Assembly (NCBI RefSeq): GCF_008000935.1
Contig: NZ_CP042831.1
Location: 3,921,856 to 3,985,855, forward strand
DNA from: Flavobacterium alkalisoli
GTDB lineage: Bacteria > Bacteroidota > Bacteroidia > Flavobacteriales > Flavobacteriaceae
Reading direction: 5' to 3'
Length of the DNA stretch: 64,000 nt
The translations under genes were made by a program, and so were the position numbers. How positions within the stretch are numbered: position 1 is the first letter of the stretch; every line of letters starts with the position of its first letter. Positions 17,120 through 22,252 of this stretch are shown here, one piece after another. The notes beneath the pieces were generated by a model that saw only the letters and a list, made by a program, of their open reading frames with translations, was not told the DNA's origin and did no database searches.

Positions 17120-18544
17120 TTAATCTTCCCGGCTTCCGTCATCGGCCATTCTTACCATTTTAGGGGTAAATTTAGCCACGACATCCACAAGGTCTGTTTG
17201 TGAGGCCATCACGGTGTTGATATCTTTATAAGCCATAGGCGCTTCATCTTTTCCTGCCCCAATAAGGGTCACGCCATGGTCTTTAAGTACTTGTCTCATA
17301 TCATCTCGGGTAATGCTTTTTATAGCCTGTGTTCGGCTCATTTGCCTTCCCGCTCCATGTGAAGCTGAGTTAATGGAATTTTCTTCTCCTTTACCTCTCA
17401 CAAGGAATCCCGGTGCCGTCATACTACCCGGTATAATACCCATAACCCCTTTACCGGCCGGTGTTGCCCCCTTACGGTGTACTATTACCTCTTCTCCGTT
17501 AAGGATTTCCTTCCATGCAAAATTATGATGATTCTCTACCTTAGCCAGCACTTTACCTCCTAAAGCCCTTTCCATCTTATCATGTATTACCTGATGACAG
17601 GCCGATGCATAATCTCCAGCCAGGTTCATAGCCATCCAGTATTCCTGCCCCTCCTGAGTACTAAGATCCAGATAAGCAAGGTTTTGAGCTTCCCTTGGCA
17701 GTTTGCACATACTCTTGGCAAGCTTGGTATAATGTCCTGCTATAGTAGCACCCAAACCACGTGAACCCGAATGGGTAAGCAAAGCCACATAACGTCCCTT
17801 ATCTATGTTAAGTATCTCATCTCTTTGTTCAAACTCTATAATACCAAATTCCACAAAGTGATTACCTCCTCCCGAAGTACCTAACTGAGACCAGGCTTTA
17901 TCCTGGAGGCTTTTTAAAAGTTGGTTCATATTAAACTCATCACGGTCTAATATATCGTGAGTCGTTTTATCTCTCCCTTTAAAACCCTGCCCTGCACCAA
18001 ATTTAGACTGAGCAATAAGCTCCCTTTTAAACTTAGCCTGATTTTCCATAAAGAATCCTTCAGGAATATCGTATACCGACAGTGCCATTCTACAACCTAT
18101 ATCTACCCCAACCCCATAAGGAATTATGGCATTTTTTGTTGCAAGCACACCACCTATAGGAAGGCCGTATCCCTGATGGGCATCGGGCATTAAAGACCCC
18201 GCTACCGTTACCGGCAGTTTCATTGCCACATCCATTTGGGTCTTCGCCCCTTCTTCTATATGTTTTTCACCATATATAGTATACGTCTCCGGATTTTCAA
18301 CAAGAGGTATTTCGTCTTCCTTCAAAATGTTTGCTTCCTCTATCATTGCCGAAGCCAGTGTTCCTAAAACTTCGTCATCAAGAAAATTCTCCGGATAATC
18401 ATTTACTTTCTTTAATAAAGCCAATACTTCTTCTTTTTCCTGAGAAGCATATTTTTCATTTACCAATGTTAAGGCATGCCCTAAAACCGTGTTTTCTTTA
18501 AAACCGATAGTCAATAAATCGGTTCCTGTAATTAATCGTTCCAT
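17120..18544 (-). CDS. rtcB: RNA-splicing ligase RtcB
   Basis: 474 aa GTP- and Mn-dependent RNA ligase joining 2',3'-cyclic phosphate or 3'-phosphate ends to 5'-OH ends. Family landmarks in order: MPDAHQGYGLPIGG, GVGVDIGCRMALS (metal Cys), GTSGGGNHFVEFG (metal His), THSGSRGLG, VENHHNFAW, RKGATPAGKGVMGIIPG and SASHGAGRQMSR, whose His is the one guanylylated in characterised RtcB enzymes. It lies 55 bp downstream of an array of Y-RNA-like units and the Ro60 gene, all on the minus strand, so the cluster is likely transcribed together. No rtcA or archease is adjacent. Confidence 0.97.
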   Translation of the reverse strand: MERLITGTDLLTIGFKENTVLGHALTLVNEKYASQEKEEVLALLKKVNDYPENFLDDEVLGTLASAMIEEANILKEDEIPLVENPETYTIYGEKHIEEGAKTQMDVAMKLPVTVAGSLMPDAHQGYGLPIGGVLATKNAIIPYGVGVDIGCRMALSVYDIPEGFFMENQAKFKRELIAQSKFGAGQGFKGRDKTTHDILDRDEFNMNQLLKSLQDKAWSQLGTSGGGNHFVEFGIIEFEQRDEILNIDKGRYVALLTHSGSRGLGATIAGHYTKLAKSMCKLPREAQNLAYLDLSTQEGQEYWMAMNLAGDYASACHQVIHDKMERALGGKVLAKVENHHNFAWKEILNGEEVIVHRKGATPAGKGVMGIIPGSMTAPGFLVRGKGEENSINSASHGAGRQMSRTQAIKSITRDDMRQVLKDHGVTLIGAGKDEAPMAYKDINTVMASQTDLVDVVAKFTPKMVRMADDGSRED

Positions 18545-18599
18545 AACTTTTTATGTTTGCAATGGTTGCTTTAAACTTAATTTATAATTTTTAAATAGA

Positions 18600-18675
18600 A
18601 AAAGAGGCAATAAGCGTAAAGTGATGTAAGATGTCGATTTGGAAACGAAGTAACACTTTACAACGGCACTCTTTT
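18600..18675 (-). ncRNA. Candidate Y RNA, unit 6 (minimal stem form)
   Basis: 76 nt. Lower helix AAAAGAG (18675-18669) with CTCTTTT (18606-18600); upper helix GTAAAGTG with CACTTTAC (18654-18661 and 18616-18623), 8 perfect pairs. The shared 24-nt motif is at 18646-18669 and the 3' strand reads CGCTTATTGCC. The 30-nt loop has no T-arm or D-arm, so this looks like a bare Ro60-binding stem. The T-rich 3' end (TCTTTTTCTATTT) may act as a weak terminator or processing end before rtcB. Confidence 0.7.
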
Positions 18676-18676
18676 A

Positions 18677-18767
18677 CTGCCGGGGCTATAAGCAGGAAGT
18701 GACATGCAGGATTCGAACCCGCTTTAATCAGCCAGGCGAAGTAACACTTCCCTACGGCACTCAACAA
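18677..18767 (-). ncRNA. Candidate Y RNA, unit 5 (T-arm only)
   Basis: 91 nt. Upper helix GGAAGTG (18751-18745) with CACTTCC (18701-18695); the lower helix TTGTTG with CGGCAG is weaker and has several G-U pairs. The 24-nt motif is at 18737-18760. The 3' strand CACTTCCTGC-TTATAGCC closely recalls the 3' strand of animal Y RNA stems. A canonical T-arm with a TTCGAAT loop is at 18706-18722 (5 bp). No D-arm is visible. Confidence 0.75.
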
Positions 18768-18781
18768 TTTTTTAAAGAACA

Positions 18782-18914
18782 AAGGAGCAAAAAACGGTAA
18801 GAGAACGGGGGCATGTCAAGCCGGAGTCGAACCGGATAGCCTTGCCATATTAAAATGACTACGCTATTCCTCCCCCTAAGTGGTGACGAAGTATCCCTTA
18901 CCTACGGCATCCTT
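18782..18914 (-). ncRNA. Candidate Y RNA, unit 4 (divergent tRNA-like insert)
   Basis: 133 nt. Lower helix AAGGA (18914-18910) with TCCTT (18786-18782); upper helix GGTAAGGG (18902-18895) with CTCTTACC (18803-18796). The 24-nt motif is at 18887-18910. A T-arm-like hairpin CCGG-TTCGACT-CCGG is at 18821-18835, and a GGGGG/CCCCC pair (18876-18872 with 18811-18807) encloses the insert. A further hairpin with arms ATAGC and GCTAT lies between. No D-arm is evident and the arm order differs from units 1-3. Confidence 0.75.
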
Positions 18915-18921
18915 ATTTTAA

Positions 18922-19056
18922 AACAGGGCTACAAACGAAAAGAGACTATTTCCCGCGCTTACCATCTAAGCTATATCTTTCACTTTCTCGAAGAAAGGGA
19001 GAATCGAACTCCCGTCTCAGGAATGGACGAAGTAACTCTTATCTACGGCACCTGTT
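18922..19056 (-). ncRNA. Candidate Y RNA, unit 3 (tRNA-like)
   Basis: 135 nt. Lower helix AACAGG (19056-19051) with CCTGTT (18927-18922); upper helix AAGAG (19040-19036) with CTCTT (18944-18940). The 24-nt motif is at 19028-19051. Perfect T-arm GGGAG-TTCGATT-CTCCC at 18997-19013, then an acceptor-like CTTTC/GAAAG hairpin (18971-18998), then a D-arm GCTT-AGATGGT-AAGC at 18957-18971. The order T-arm, acceptor, D-arm is a circular permutation of tRNA. Confidence 0.85.
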
Positions 19057-19062
19057 ATATTA

Positions 19063-19195
19063 AGATGAGGCTATAACCGGAAAGACCTCTCTAACAAGTC
19101 TTACCAATTAGACGATATCCTTTTACAGGATAGCAGCTTTTGAAACTGCATTGTGTTAACCCCAACGAAGTAATTCTTCCCTACGGCACTCATCT
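19063..19195 (-). ncRNA. Candidate Y RNA, unit 2 (tRNA-like)
   Basis: 133 nt. Lower helix AGATGAG (19195-19189) with CTCATCT (19069-19063), 7 perfect pairs; upper helix GGGAAGA (19181-19175) with TCTTTCC (19085-19079). The 24-nt motif is at 19166-19189. T-arm with a TTCAAAA loop at 19133-19149, capped acceptor-like hairpin TATCCT-GTAAA-AGGATA at 19116-19132, D-arm GTCT...AGAC with a GG-containing loop at 19098-19113, and a further TTAACA/TGTTAG helix in the place of the anticodon stem. Confidence 0.85.
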
Positions 19196-19201
19196 AATAA
19201 G

Positions 19202-19251
19202 CTTTTATTAAGCTCCCGCAACATCCCCTGTTGCAGGAGCAATCTACAATT
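19202..19251 (-). repeat. 50-nt hairpin element, copy A
   Basis: 43 of 50 positions match copy B at 19390-19439 without gaps. On the plus strand the arms are 19213-19222 and 19230-19239. It lies between Y-RNA units 1 and 2 and includes a copy of the last codons and stop of the Ro60 gene (AATTGTAG on the minus strand). Confidence 0.85.
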
Positions 19252-19252
19252 C

Positions 19253-19373
19253 AAACAGGGCAAAAGGCAAAAAGAGTTTCTTGCTCTACCAGACTGAGCT
19301 ACATCTTACGATGACAGGATTTGAACCTGTGACACAGAACTTACGGAGTAACTCTTATTTACGGCACCTGTTT
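19253..19373 (-). ncRNA. Candidate Y RNA, unit 1 (tRNA-like, Ro60-proximal)
   Basis: 121 nt. Lower helix AAACAGG (19373-19367) with CCTGTTT (19259-19253); upper helix AAGAGTT (19356-19350) with AACTCTT (19278-19272). The 24-nt motif is at 19344-19367. Then, in order: T-arm ACAGG-TTCAAAT-CCTGT (19314-19330), acceptor-like CATC-GTAA-GATG closed by a GNRA loop (19302-19313), and a textbook D-arm GCTC-AGTCTGGTA-GAGC (19283-19299). This is the clearest tRNA mimic of the six. Confidence 0.88.
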
Positions 19374-19389
19374 TTATTATGTTTATGAA

Positions 19390-19439
19390 CTTTTATTAAG
19401 CTTCCGCAGCATCCCCGGCTGCGGAAGCGATCTACAATT
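19390..19439 (-). repeat. 50-nt hairpin element, copy B
   Basis: Arms CTTCCGCAGC (19401-19410) and GCTGCGGAAG (19418-19427) pair fully. Relative to copy A, pairs 215/237 and 221/231 (19000-based) changed on both sides (C-G to T-A, A-T to G-C), so the hairpin is conserved by compensatory change. It begins within the last codons of the Ro60 gene and ends 15 nt before unit 1. No T run follows, so it is not an ordinary terminator. Confidence 0.85.
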
Positions 19440-20946
19440 TGATTTGGCTTATCTTTTCCATAGCAATTGCCGTATCATTTACAGCATTAAGAACATCAAA
19501 GATCTTGTCAGACCAGCCAGCTATCAAATACACATCATTTCTTTTTATATCTAAAGGCATTTTACCATGCCCTGCAAGGTCAAATATATACAGGCTGGCA
19601 TTTGGTGCTATTTCCTTATACTTTTTCCATGAGCCTTCAAACGAATTGAAGCCTGTGCTATCATACATCTGCACATCGGTAAACAACATAACTTTATCTA
19701 CAACCTCTTTTCTTTTTATAAGGTCGTTAACAACCAGGTAGCCATTTGTAGCATAACCTACTTCACCTTCCCTTCTGTAATACTCCAGTACATTTGCCAG
19801 TACATTTCTCCTTGGCATGTTTATTATTTTCCAACGGTCGCCAAACATACCGCTTATAACATTTTTACATTGCGACTGCATAAGCATACCCAGCATTAGG
19901 CCTATATCATAAAGCATTACACTACTCTTTGCCGAAACAGGTTGCTGCATTGAACCTGAAACGTCGCAGGCAATAACAACCGATGTATTCACACCAAAAC
20001 CTTTTATGTTTTTAGCACTATGCATTACCGCATCCTCAAGAGCTTCGAGAACCATAGAGGTATATTTCGATTCATGCTTTTTAACTTCTCTATAAGCTGC
20101 AAGAAACCTAAAAGGCAATTGTTTAGATGTTGCCACAGCCTGTTCGTTAGAAATATAACTGCAAACCATTTTAATATGATTTACGGAAACGCCTGCATCA
20201 AGTATATTTCTCAGGTTACGCATTATAGCCATATACCCTACTTTTTTACTCTCTATTAATTCCTGCCATTTTTGAGCAACTGCCATCTGTTTAACAACCT
20301 GATTCTCAAACCTGGTTTTTCCCAGTTCAGAAAGCTCAGTTTCCCATGTATAAGGCACAGCAAGTGTATTGGCAGCAATCTTATTAAATACTTCCTGCTG
20401 GCTCTCATCTTTTGCTTTAGGGTGAACCAAAAACAGGGCGTCTTTAAGTTTCACTTCTGTTTTCCTGTTGTATTTGGCAAACTGGTATTCATCAAACCTG
20501 TTAAACGACTCTGCAAGTCCTTTTTGTACCTGCTTAGAAAGGCTTCCCAGTTTTTTTGCACCCTGCCTTTTGTTTGCTATCTGATAGTAAGCTAAAAGCT
20601 CGGCAATCTCATCGGCACGCTGTACTACTCCGTTTATTGTTTTACTTACTATTGAAGTACCCGACGCCTGTTTTGCAAGTTCAACCGAAAGCACTAAAGG
20701 AATACTCCTTAAATACATTTGTGTTCTAACATAAACGGCTAACTTTGCAACAAACTCGGCATCACATAAAGCCATAAGGTTTATAATTCTTTTAAGTCTT
20801 TCGCTTCCCGATTCGTAAAATGTATCACTCAGCCCGGTTGTAACCACTGCTGTATACAGTTCCATTTCGGGAGTAACTTTATAAGCTTTAGCTCCTTGGT
20901 GATTTACAGTTATGTTTTTGTTTTTGGCTAAAAAATTGAATTTCAT
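19432..20946 (-). CDS. rsr: Ro60-like TROVE domain protein (Rsr)
   Basis: 504 aa orthologue of the Ro60 autoantigen. Residues about 15-310 form the alpha-helical TROVE ring (landmarks GSERLKRIINLMALCDAEFVAKLAVYVR and YRSIP-like LRSIPLVLSVEL). Residues about 320-500 form a von Willebrand A domain with a complete MIDAS start DVSGS (D328, S330, S332) and later LFTDVQMY. In bacteria Ro60 binds Y RNA and works with PNPase or RNase partners in RNA degradation and maturation. Immediately downstream is an array of Y-RNA-like units and then rtcB, which strongly supports the assignment. The divergent neighbour is a WYL regulator. Confidence 0.95.
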   Translation of the reverse strand: MKFNFLAKNKNITVNHQGAKAYKVTPEMELYTAVVTTGLSDTFYESGSERLKRIINLMALCDAEFVAKLAVYVRTQMYLRSIPLVLSVELAKQASGTSIVSKTINGVVQRADEIAELLAYYQIANKRQGAKKLGSLSKQVQKGLAESFNRFDEYQFAKYNRKTEVKLKDALFLVHPKAKDESQQEVFNKIAANTLAVPYTWETELSELGKTRFENQVVKQMAVAQKWQELIESKKVGYMAIMRNLRNILDAGVSVNHIKMVCSYISNEQAVATSKQLPFRFLAAYREVKKHESKYTSMVLEALEDAVMHSAKNIKGFGVNTSVVIACDVSGSMQQPVSAKSSVMLYDIGLMLGMLMQSQCKNVISGMFGDRWKIINMPRRNVLANVLEYYRREGEVGYATNGYLVVNDLIKRKEVVDKVMLFTDVQMYDSTGFNSFEGSWKKYKEIAPNASLYIFDLAGHGKMPLDIKRNDVYLIAGWSDKIFDVLNAVNDTAIAMEKISQIKL

Positions 20947-21226: not shown

Positions 21227-22252
21227 ATGGCTACAAATAAGCTTGCCCTTTTACGATATAAAACCATTGACGAATGCCTTAAAAACCGATTCAGGAAATG
21301 GACACTGGAAGACCTTATAGAAAAAGTATCGTATGCCTTATACGAATATGAGGGTATTTCTACCGGGGTAAGCAAAAGGACTATTCAGTCTGACATTCAA
21401 ACCATGCGTAGTGATAAGCTGGGATACAATGCCCCTATTGTTGTTATTGACAAAAGGTTTTATACTTATGAAGATTCCGATTACAGTATAACCAATTCTC
21501 CTATCAATACTGCCGATATGGATAAGATGAAGGAGATAGTAAGCGTTTTGAAGCACTTAAATGGCTTTAACTACTTTGACGAAATGAGTGATCTTATCGC
21601 AAAACTGGAAAACAACGTAAACAAATCGGCCGACAGTAATAAGAACTACATTCAGTTTGAAGACAACAAAAACCTTAAGGGAATTGAACATATTAGCCCT
21701 TTGTATCAGGCTATTTTAAATAAAACACCGCTACTTATAGAGTATAAATCATTCAAAGCTTTAAAAGCTAGTAATGAAATTTACTACCCATACCTTTTAA
21801 AAGAGTACAGAAACAGATGGTTTTTGGTTTGCAGGCCAAAAAAAAACCAAAACCTTCTTACTCTGGCCCTGGACAGGATTATTGAATTTCATTCCCTTTC
21901 AAAAGAACTGTATGTTGAATATGACGGTGTAAATTTTGACCGTTATTTTAATGATTTGCTGGGAGTAACAAAATCTCAAAAAGACAGGCCCAGTAAAGTA
22001 ATACTGCATGTAAACAAATACAACGCCCCTTATGTAATAACTAAACCCATCCATCATTCGCAACAGATTGTTAAAGAGGATGAAACCGGTATTATAATAC
22101 GGATAGATGTGGTTCATAACTTTGAATTGGAAAGGGAGATATTGGGCTTTGGGGAATGCATGAAGGTTTTGGCCCCAAGAAAGCTTAAAAGTATTATAGC
22201 TGCGAGGATTAATAAATCGGCAGAAAGATATCATAACGAAGAGGAATCTTAA
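21227..22252 (+). CDS. WYL-domain HTH transcriptional regulator
   Basis: 341 aa. The N-terminal winged HTH spans about residues 1-90, with the recognition segment ISTGVSKRTIQSDIQTMRS; the WYL domain is at about 150-235 (TPLLIEYKSF...YPYLLKEYRNRWFLV), where the WYL triplet reads W-F-L; the C-terminal WCX-like part ends near 330. WYL domains sense nucleic acids or nucleotide ligands and often control stress or defence operons. It is divergent from the Ro60 gene with a 280-bp shared upstream region holding two TGCGCA-type operator elements. I infer that it controls the Ro60/Y-RNA/rtcB operon, the place held by RtcR in enterobacteria. Confidence 0.92.
   Translation: MATNKLALLRYKTIDECLKNRFRKWTLEDLIEKVSYALYEYEGISTGVSKRTIQSDIQTMRSDKLGYNAPIVVIDKRFYTYEDSDYSITNSPINTADMDKMKEIVSVLKHLNGFNYFDEMSDLIAKLENNVNKSADSNKNYIQFEDNKNLKGIEHISPLYQAILNKTPLLIEYKSFKALKASNEIYYPYLLKEYRNRWFLVCRPKKNQNLLTLALDRIIEFHSLSKELYVEYDGVNFDRYFNDLLGVTKSQKDRPSKVILHVNKYNAPYVITKPIHHSQQIVKEDETGIIIRIDVVHNFELEREILGFGECMKVLAPRKLKSIIAARINKSAERYHNEEES

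Follow-up and report, generated by a model that had tools for sequence, protein, structure and literature searches.

Six Y RNA-like units with several head types between ro60 and rtcB in Flavobacterium alkalisoli

The interval between ro60 and rtcB

The ring protein Ro60 is shared between bacteria and humans, in whom it is a lupus autoantigen, and Chen et al. in 2014 reportedly found Y RNAs near Ro60 in more than 250 species, each with at least one tRNA-like Y RNA. The locus studied here raises the question of what a row of repeated units between a ro60 gene and an rtcB gene encodes. We analysed a stretch of 64,000 nucleotides of Flavobacterium alkalisoli (the window, to which positions given without a locus or genome number refer), in which an earlier note had read six alike Y-RNA-like units. 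Our main reading, to which we assign a probability of roughly 0.6, is that the minus strand carries a cluster of six Y RNAs in a ro60-Y-rtcB RNA-repair operon, where one Ro60 ring would be served by exchangeable adaptor heads.

On the minus strand, ro60 (rsr; 19432..20946) encodes a TROVE ring protein of 504 aa with a vWA domain (Pfam TROVE 1.3e-28, above the cut-off; vWA_Ro60 2.6e-4, under that model's cut-off), clearly related to the TROVE proteins 9l5y and 9kop in the PDB (E 2.2e-30). Downstream on the same strand, rtcB (17120..18544) encodes the RNA ligase RtcB of 474 aa (Pfam RtcB 1.8e-83). Divergent from ro60, on the plus strand, lies a gene for a WYL/WCX transcription regulator (21227..22252; Pfam WYL 6.5e-10, WCX 1.1e-9), which likely controls the ro60 operon. 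The Salmonella rsr-yrlBA-rtcBA operon, as described in the available text of PMC7790460, likewise holds Ro60, Y RNAs and RtcB, in the same order and orientation. In contrast to Salmonella with its yrlB and yrlA, the window has six Y units; the divergent neighbour is the WYL/WCX gene, RtcR (CARF, sigma-54) was not found beside the window operon, and no RtcA directly follows rtcB, the next minus-strand gene encoding a peptidase M15/VanY.

The six units, U1 to U6 counted from ro60, share a 24-nt motif, and its six ungapped copies (18646-18669, 18737-18760, 18887-18910, 19028-19051, 19166-19189 and 19344-19367) were recovered as the earlier note had placed them. The array also lies where that note had put it, with the RNA strand now corrected to minus and the outer units reaching about 19373 and 18598. 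By their heads we distinguish class A (U1-U3), B (U4), C (U5) and D (U6). A core pattern allowing up to three mismatches gave eight matches in the 64-kb window against 0.6 expected; six are the units (0-1 mismatch) and two lie elsewhere with three mismatches. Across the genome (3.99 Mb, one contig) the units are the only matches with 0-1 mismatch; three further matches have two mismatches, and a reversed control pattern gives three at up to two.

The motif, which ends in UACUUCG, forms the 5' side of a common stem, described by a lower helix, a bulged base, GC, an internal loop of 4 nt (5') and 7 nt (3'), and an upper helix. This descriptor fits all six units, with 7-10 bp in the upper helix, and averages 0.03 matches at its lowest threshold and none above it in 30 dinucleotide shuffles of the region, which bears out the claim that a 3' strand closes a lower and an upper helix in each unit. 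Over the 15 kb scanned there is one stray match, of score 30, within a predicted coding frame. Bacterial Y RNAs in the wide sense have a basal stem interrupted by a bulged base and an internal loop, and 6/6 units show it. Vertebrate Y RNAs (RF00019) resemble the units in an internal loop and in a lower helix where one base is bulged (available text of PMC4726728). The likeness to animal hY1 that had been claimed for the units was not picked up by the Rfam Y_RNA model, to which this comparison is limited and which found no match in the window up to E=5. By form and linkage the six units read as real bacterial Y RNAs, with a common Ro60-type stem and a covarying upper helix.

Two near-identical strong hairpins accompany the units on the minus strand: HP1, with an 11-bp stem, between ro60 and U1 (19400..19428), and its second copy HP2 between U1 and U2 (19212..19240). 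The genome holds no further copies, which rules out a genome-wide repeat, and the pair suggests that a hairpin and a class A unit were duplicated together. Hairpins resembling HP1 and HP2 also lie between the units of a related locus, L007. The terminator scan called neither HP1 nor HP2, and scanning the region for sigma-70 promoters and terminators revealed no excess. A Bacteroidota-type promoter pattern has no match between ro60 and rtcB and two matches within ro60, which lack TTG at the right distance. Since neighbouring units mostly almost touch, we suggest that they may be processed from one transcript.

Arrays and neighbours in related Ro60 loci

A Ro60 alignment of 19 proteins led to 80 genome loci, the best 80 of at least 408 confirmed relatives and nearly all from Bacteroidota (given L numbers below; L001-L004 are left out of the locus counts). 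With a 29-position motif matrix, 80 of the 81 loci (the window included) gave matches in the 4.5 kb that follow Ro60, 431 in total. At the same score, that strand has a single match outside this range and the reverse strand has none; as the matrix was trained on the regions that it then matches, it is this silence elsewhere that is informative. The motifs of the window begin 69-767 nt past the end of the ro60 match, and L062, the only locus without a match, breaks off about 200 bases past Ro60. The sequences being related, shuffle counts here and below are not probabilities.

The stem recurs with the motif. A complementary 3' strand was found for 394 of the 431 matches, against 3 of 144 tail-shuffled controls, and 37 matches gave no good partner strand in that search. 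Most stems have the bulged base (391/394), and loop lengths of 4 (356/394) and 7 (316/394) are the commonest, values that the search favours by slightly penalising other loop lengths and a missing bulge. Within the motif, UG-Y-CGU and U-A-C-U-U-C-G hardly vary across the 431 units apart from some A/U exchange. UACUUCG follows the upper helix unpaired (for example 18743-18737, minus strand) and is shared by bare class D units; outside class B, no pairing partner accounts for it.

The array had been called unusually large, which does not hold for Ro60 loci in general: the 80 relatives have a median of 5 units per locus (range 2-11, plus one zero), so that six is ordinary. RtcB lies downstream on the same strand in the window and in 22 of the 80 relatives, and among these 22 loci (2-6 units, median 4) six is the top value; the other 58 hold 0-11 units, with a median of 6. 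In all 22 RtcB loci every detected unit lies between Ro60 and RtcB, and class B is present in 22/22. Counted over at most 6 kb on each side of Ro60, a divergent WYL relative stands upstream of Ro60 in 29 of the 80 loci, together with RtcB in 20. Judged by similarity to one example each, RlaP is found near Ro60 in seven of the 80 and an Rnl2-type ligase in eight; Thg1 and another RNA ligase are found in one.

The window contains no tRNA gene. In the relatives, at least three tRNA genes adjoin Ro60 in 9 of 80 loci, and in L024, L027 and L034 they stand among the Y units. The tRNA-rich loci (L024, L027, L034, L040, L047, L048, L049, L074 and L076) have 3-17 tRNA genes near Ro60, and some adjoin genes for Thg1, an RNA ligase or RNase H-like proteins. 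No mention of TROVE, Ro60, RtcB or YrlA was found in the available text of two tRNA-array papers (PMC5966550, PMC12803027). Flavo-1 RNA (RF01705) also occurs near Ro60, passing the cut-off at L073:7578-7660 (minus) and L009:1100-1258 (plus) and falling below it at L048:7550-7673 (minus).

Phage contigs, some of them near-duplicates, carry Y-like units near Ro60 in 23 of 54 cases; these 58 units often come before ro60. One unit lies farther from Ro60 and none is on the reverse strand. The Ro60 match spans about 2.2 kb rather than 1.5 kb in two phage loci (L097:1789-3970 and L098:361-2542), and their ro60 may be interrupted by an insert.

These comparisons bear on the idea that rtcB has a cis-acting leader here, an attenuator or processing region, and that no free RNAs are made from it. 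A leader would sit, as the array does, between two co-directional genes and could make use of HP1 and HP2; yet neither hairpin is called a terminator, loci with no RtcB downstream on that strand of the stretch covered (58 of 80) do not have smaller arrays (median 6 against 4), and phage units often precede ro60. We regard a leader as quite improbable.

Permuted tRNA-like heads and the class B head

The three class A units of the window lie on the minus strand and run in the order T-arm, acceptor-like hairpin, D-arm, in U2 as read by eye only. U1 (19253..19373), its arms read on the sequence with the Rfam YrlA match, has its T-arm at 19330-19314, a short acceptor-like hairpin at 19313-19302 and its D-arm at 19299-19283. 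In U2 (19061..19197) the corresponding parts are 19149-19133, 19132-19116 and 19113-19098, joined by a 5-bp anticodon-stem-like helix (19158-19154/19096-19092); the automatic parse chose another stretch as the D-arm of U2, which is outside the set given to ARAGORN. In U3 (18919..19059), acceptor-like strands accompany a T-arm at 19013-18997 and a D-arm at 18971-18957. The predicted form of these three heads is that of a circularly permuted tRNA with the Ro60 stem in place of the anticodon loop.

YrlA (RF02553) resembles U1-U3 in lying beside ro60, in its stem with internal loop and in its permuted T-arm, acceptor and D-arm, and it receives tRNA-type modifications from DusA and TruB. In the Rfam covariance search, which the earlier note had proposed, the whole YrlA model aligned to U1 at 43.8 bits (E 2.7e-8) and U3 matched at 16.1 bits (E 2.8), both under the gathering score of 69; with the limit at E=5, neither YrlA nor any other Y RNA family matched U2, U4, U5 or U6. 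No Rfam family reached its gathering score in the window, nor did any unit reach the YrlA score of 69 in the 15 related loci scanned (5 + 10). The window units further differ from YrlA in their stem loops and in UACUUCG, which is not seen in the printed Rfam YrlA consensus; U4, U5 and U6, with other heads or none, do not show the permuted order. The full-length, sub-threshold match of U1, the tRNA-mimic heads and the motif in 80/81 loci nevertheless uphold Y-RNA-like units between Ro60 and RtcB.

The mimicry was examined in 128 of the 153 units called class A, those with a good stem and parse. ARAGORN called a tRNA in 81 of 128 rotated modules and in 0/128 native and 0/128 shuffled ones; U3 is among the called modules, U1 among the 47 rotated modules that get no call. 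In 62 unique long pairs of acceptor strands, 6.1 of 7 positions pair on average; re-dealing the strands lowers this to 4.0 (at most 4.5 in 500). When the two strands are required to be separate, 7/7 pairing is seen in 81 of 127 class A units. An encoded CCA end was dropped as a feature, being present in 2 of 10 related loci inspected. YrlA also matches, below its cut-off, the junction of tandem tRNA genes in L048 (4129-4195 and 4207-4277, plus strand; 36.6 and 29.0 bits), hinting that the permuted head may derive from a tRNA-array junction.

Could class A units be permuted tRNA precursors, from which RtcB with RNases P and Z would make real tRNAs? The unit order matches that of a permuted tRNA, RtcB is a tRNA-splicing ligase, and full acceptor pairing in the 81 units would fit. 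Against this, the rotated modules inspected show no consistent anticodon (the joint being arbitrary), the acceptor-like stem of U1 has just 4 bp, and class A occurs also in loci without RtcB found downstream. Such precursors seem to us highly unlikely.

U4 (18782..18914, minus strand) has a head of another type, class B, whose order is G-run, AGGA, rod, T-arm, linker and C-run. Its G-run (18876-18872) faces the C-run (18811-18807); between them follow AGGA (18871-18868), a rod (18867-18863/18840-18836) with a hairpin, and the T-arm (18835-18821), and a probable pseudoknot would join 18887-18884 to 18818-18815. A unit of the same order and with sequence likeness is present in 66 of the 80 related loci (degenerate in L063 and L071), and a stricter class call finds class B once each in 59. 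The fold was tested on an alignment of 63 class B rows including U4, from which we left out L018 (identical to L017), the degenerate L063 and L071, L074 (broken motif), and L024 and L027 (weak signature without the motif). In this alignment 99.1% of cells are paired and 13 of 21 pairs change on both sides; none of 500 shuffles scored as high in any measure, and sliding the structure left 30-53% paired. The covariation is strong. Folding four class B sequences singly gave structures no stabler than shuffles (z -1.1 to +0.4), for which reason covariation was used.

AGGA is invariant in the 63 rows, the T-loop is nearly so, and the inner sequence hardly differs across families. The helix of G-run and C-run also hardly varies, and its basis is complementarity and a GGGC/GCCC version in the distant L188. 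The pseudoknot would pair the bases that follow UUCG with the linker preceding the C-run; because the linkers are misaligned, it was tested by re-dealing strands: the mean helix score was 9.52 against 8.03, with 0/2000 as high over 61 unique pairs, a result that the kinship of the sequences inflates. Subtype B1 alone also gave 0/2000, and in B2 alone 25/2000 reached the observed mean (n=9), which is not a clear pass; we consider the pseudoknot probable. AGGA could take the role of the GG of the tRNA D-loop that meets the T-loop, and a Shine-Dalgarno-like decoy (GGAGG) was considered as well. Subtype B2 runs G-run, AGG, a simple hairpin, an arm of the kind GAGG-UGCAAAU-CCUC, linker and C-run, and occurs in L024, L027, L034, L067, L084, L191 and L195 and, with differing sequence, in L188 and L189.

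Class B has no match in Rfam 15, and we searched genomes with our own class B model, R1. In F. alkalisoli R1 scores 129 bits (U4 being among its source sequences). Within the order, R1 matches 27 of 395 genomes (E<=0.001) and a Ro60 profile 36; all 27 are among the 36, and the other 359 give none, which rules out R1 as a generic tRNA detector. In each of the 27 genomes the best match is about 0.2-5.3 kb downstream of Ro60, with which it shares contig and strand. In 395 genomes sampled from the class, some of which also belong to the order sample, R1 matched ten, each of them one of the 19 genomes that the Ro60 profile matched; outside the genus the scores were only 41-52 bits. Eight matches lie within about 1 kb of Ro60, one 25 kb off (G736), and in G1013 the match and Ro60 are on different contigs. 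Since the sequences behind R1 came from beside Ro60, its silence elsewhere is the informative result, and scans of more than 40 genomes ran stricter filters, at which weak matches are lost. G736 (L188) has a Y-like array at C4, about 213246-214512, in which R1 matches several times; the only Ro60 found in G736 is some 25 kb away. Within the family, Ro60 was found in 2 of 299 genomes searched, F. alkalisoli being one of the two, and the locus is therefore patchy.

The remaining units are simpler: U5 (18676..18768), class C, bears a single T-arm (18722-18706) on the Y RNA stem, and U6 (18598..18677), class D, is a bare stem without a tRNA-like head, both on the minus strand. A rough classifier with rules of our own, which misplace some units (several called C visibly hold a D-arm), divides the 431 units into A 153, C 91, D 82, B 60, unclassified 33 and D-arm only 12. 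Of the earlier picture of six alike units, then, the common stem stands; what it missed are the tRNA-like heads, the head types and the wide conservation of U4 (66/80 loci). In F. beibuense (L005) the sole class A unit joins the head of U1 to the stem of U3, which indicates that heads and stems recombine. In L037, an 11-unit array of Chryseobacterium, units 5 and 6 are identical to units 1 and 2 (65 and 73 nt), an apparent block duplication within the array.

Might the units simply be decayed tRNA genes left over from a tRNA array and without function? The tRNA-like pieces and the interleaving of Y units with tRNA genes in three loci recall such an origin. The covariation of class B, the partner strand found for 394 of 431 motif matches, the permuted order and the link to Ro60 nevertheless speak against decay, which we consider very improbable.

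What the heads may do

Our preferred reading remains a set of Y RNAs with differing heads. Elsewhere among bacteria, Ro60 is linked to PNPase and gated by a Y RNA (available text of PMC4726728 and PMC8394870), and the Salmonella operon responds to tRNA fragments (available text of PMC7790460 and PMC8394870). From these we infer that the heads of the window may be adaptors or gates for different partners. The six units would be cut from one transcript, each Y RNA would bind Ro60 through the common type of lower stem, and its head would either bring a tRNA-handling partner (PNPase is the one known elsewhere) or block the ring. Induced by RNA damage, one Ro60 could then serve several RNA decay and repair tasks when tRNAs are damaged. 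The model for a Y RNA that tethers a nuclease to the ring is the Deinococcus Ro60/Y RNA/PNPase complex RYPER; for the window, the diversity of adaptors is read from form.

The tRNA-like heads may instead be decoys that sequester or inhibit toxins that cut tRNA, or the anticodon nucleases of phages, with Ro60 only stabilising them and an arms race driving their diversity. The tRNA mimicry of class A, the tRNA gene clusters beside some Ro60 loci and the phage contigs with Ro60 and Y-like units (23/54) would all suit decoys, and competitive inhibition is raised as a possibility for YrlA by Hughes et al. 2020 (available text of PMC7790460). However, the usual target, the anticodon loop, would by the predicted fold be replaced by the Ro60 stem; the inner sequence of class B is near-invariant across families, unlike the outcome of an arms race; and class D has no recognisable tRNA mimicry. 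On balance we think decoys unlikely.

Extended beyond the window, the adaptor reading would describe a modular Ro60 of Bacteroidota, with a constant stem, at least four exchangeable heads including class B (B1 and B2), a recombining array and a programmable set of adaptors for the repair and decay of RNA, in some genomes set within emergency tRNA-replacement islands. This generalisation is tentative, and we put it somewhat short of even odds. Y RNAs were pulled down with the Ro60 of Bacteroides thetaiotaomicron (available text of PMC11277228), and Y RNAs in this phylum are therefore not new as such. New are the diversity of heads and class B; the array itself is ordinary in size for Ro60 loci. 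Class B is apparently a head type not described before, conserved beside Ro60 in many relatives. Judged by titles and the starts of abstracts, no paper listed deals with arrays of Y RNAs in Bacteroidota or with an RNA like class B there; Chen et al. 2014, outside this comparison, possibly noticed multi-unit loci or even class B earlier.

The locus bears on what bacterial Y RNAs do and on why the Ro60 ring needs them. One Ro60 with several head types on one stem amounts to a natural head-swap experiment, and class B, compact and highly conserved, with a T-loop and a probable pseudoknot, is suited to structure work. Some arrays join Ro60 to tRNA clusters and RNA-repair enzymes, a setting that can be tested under tRNA damage or phage attack. 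If the adaptor reading is true, the ring would gain a different partner through each head.
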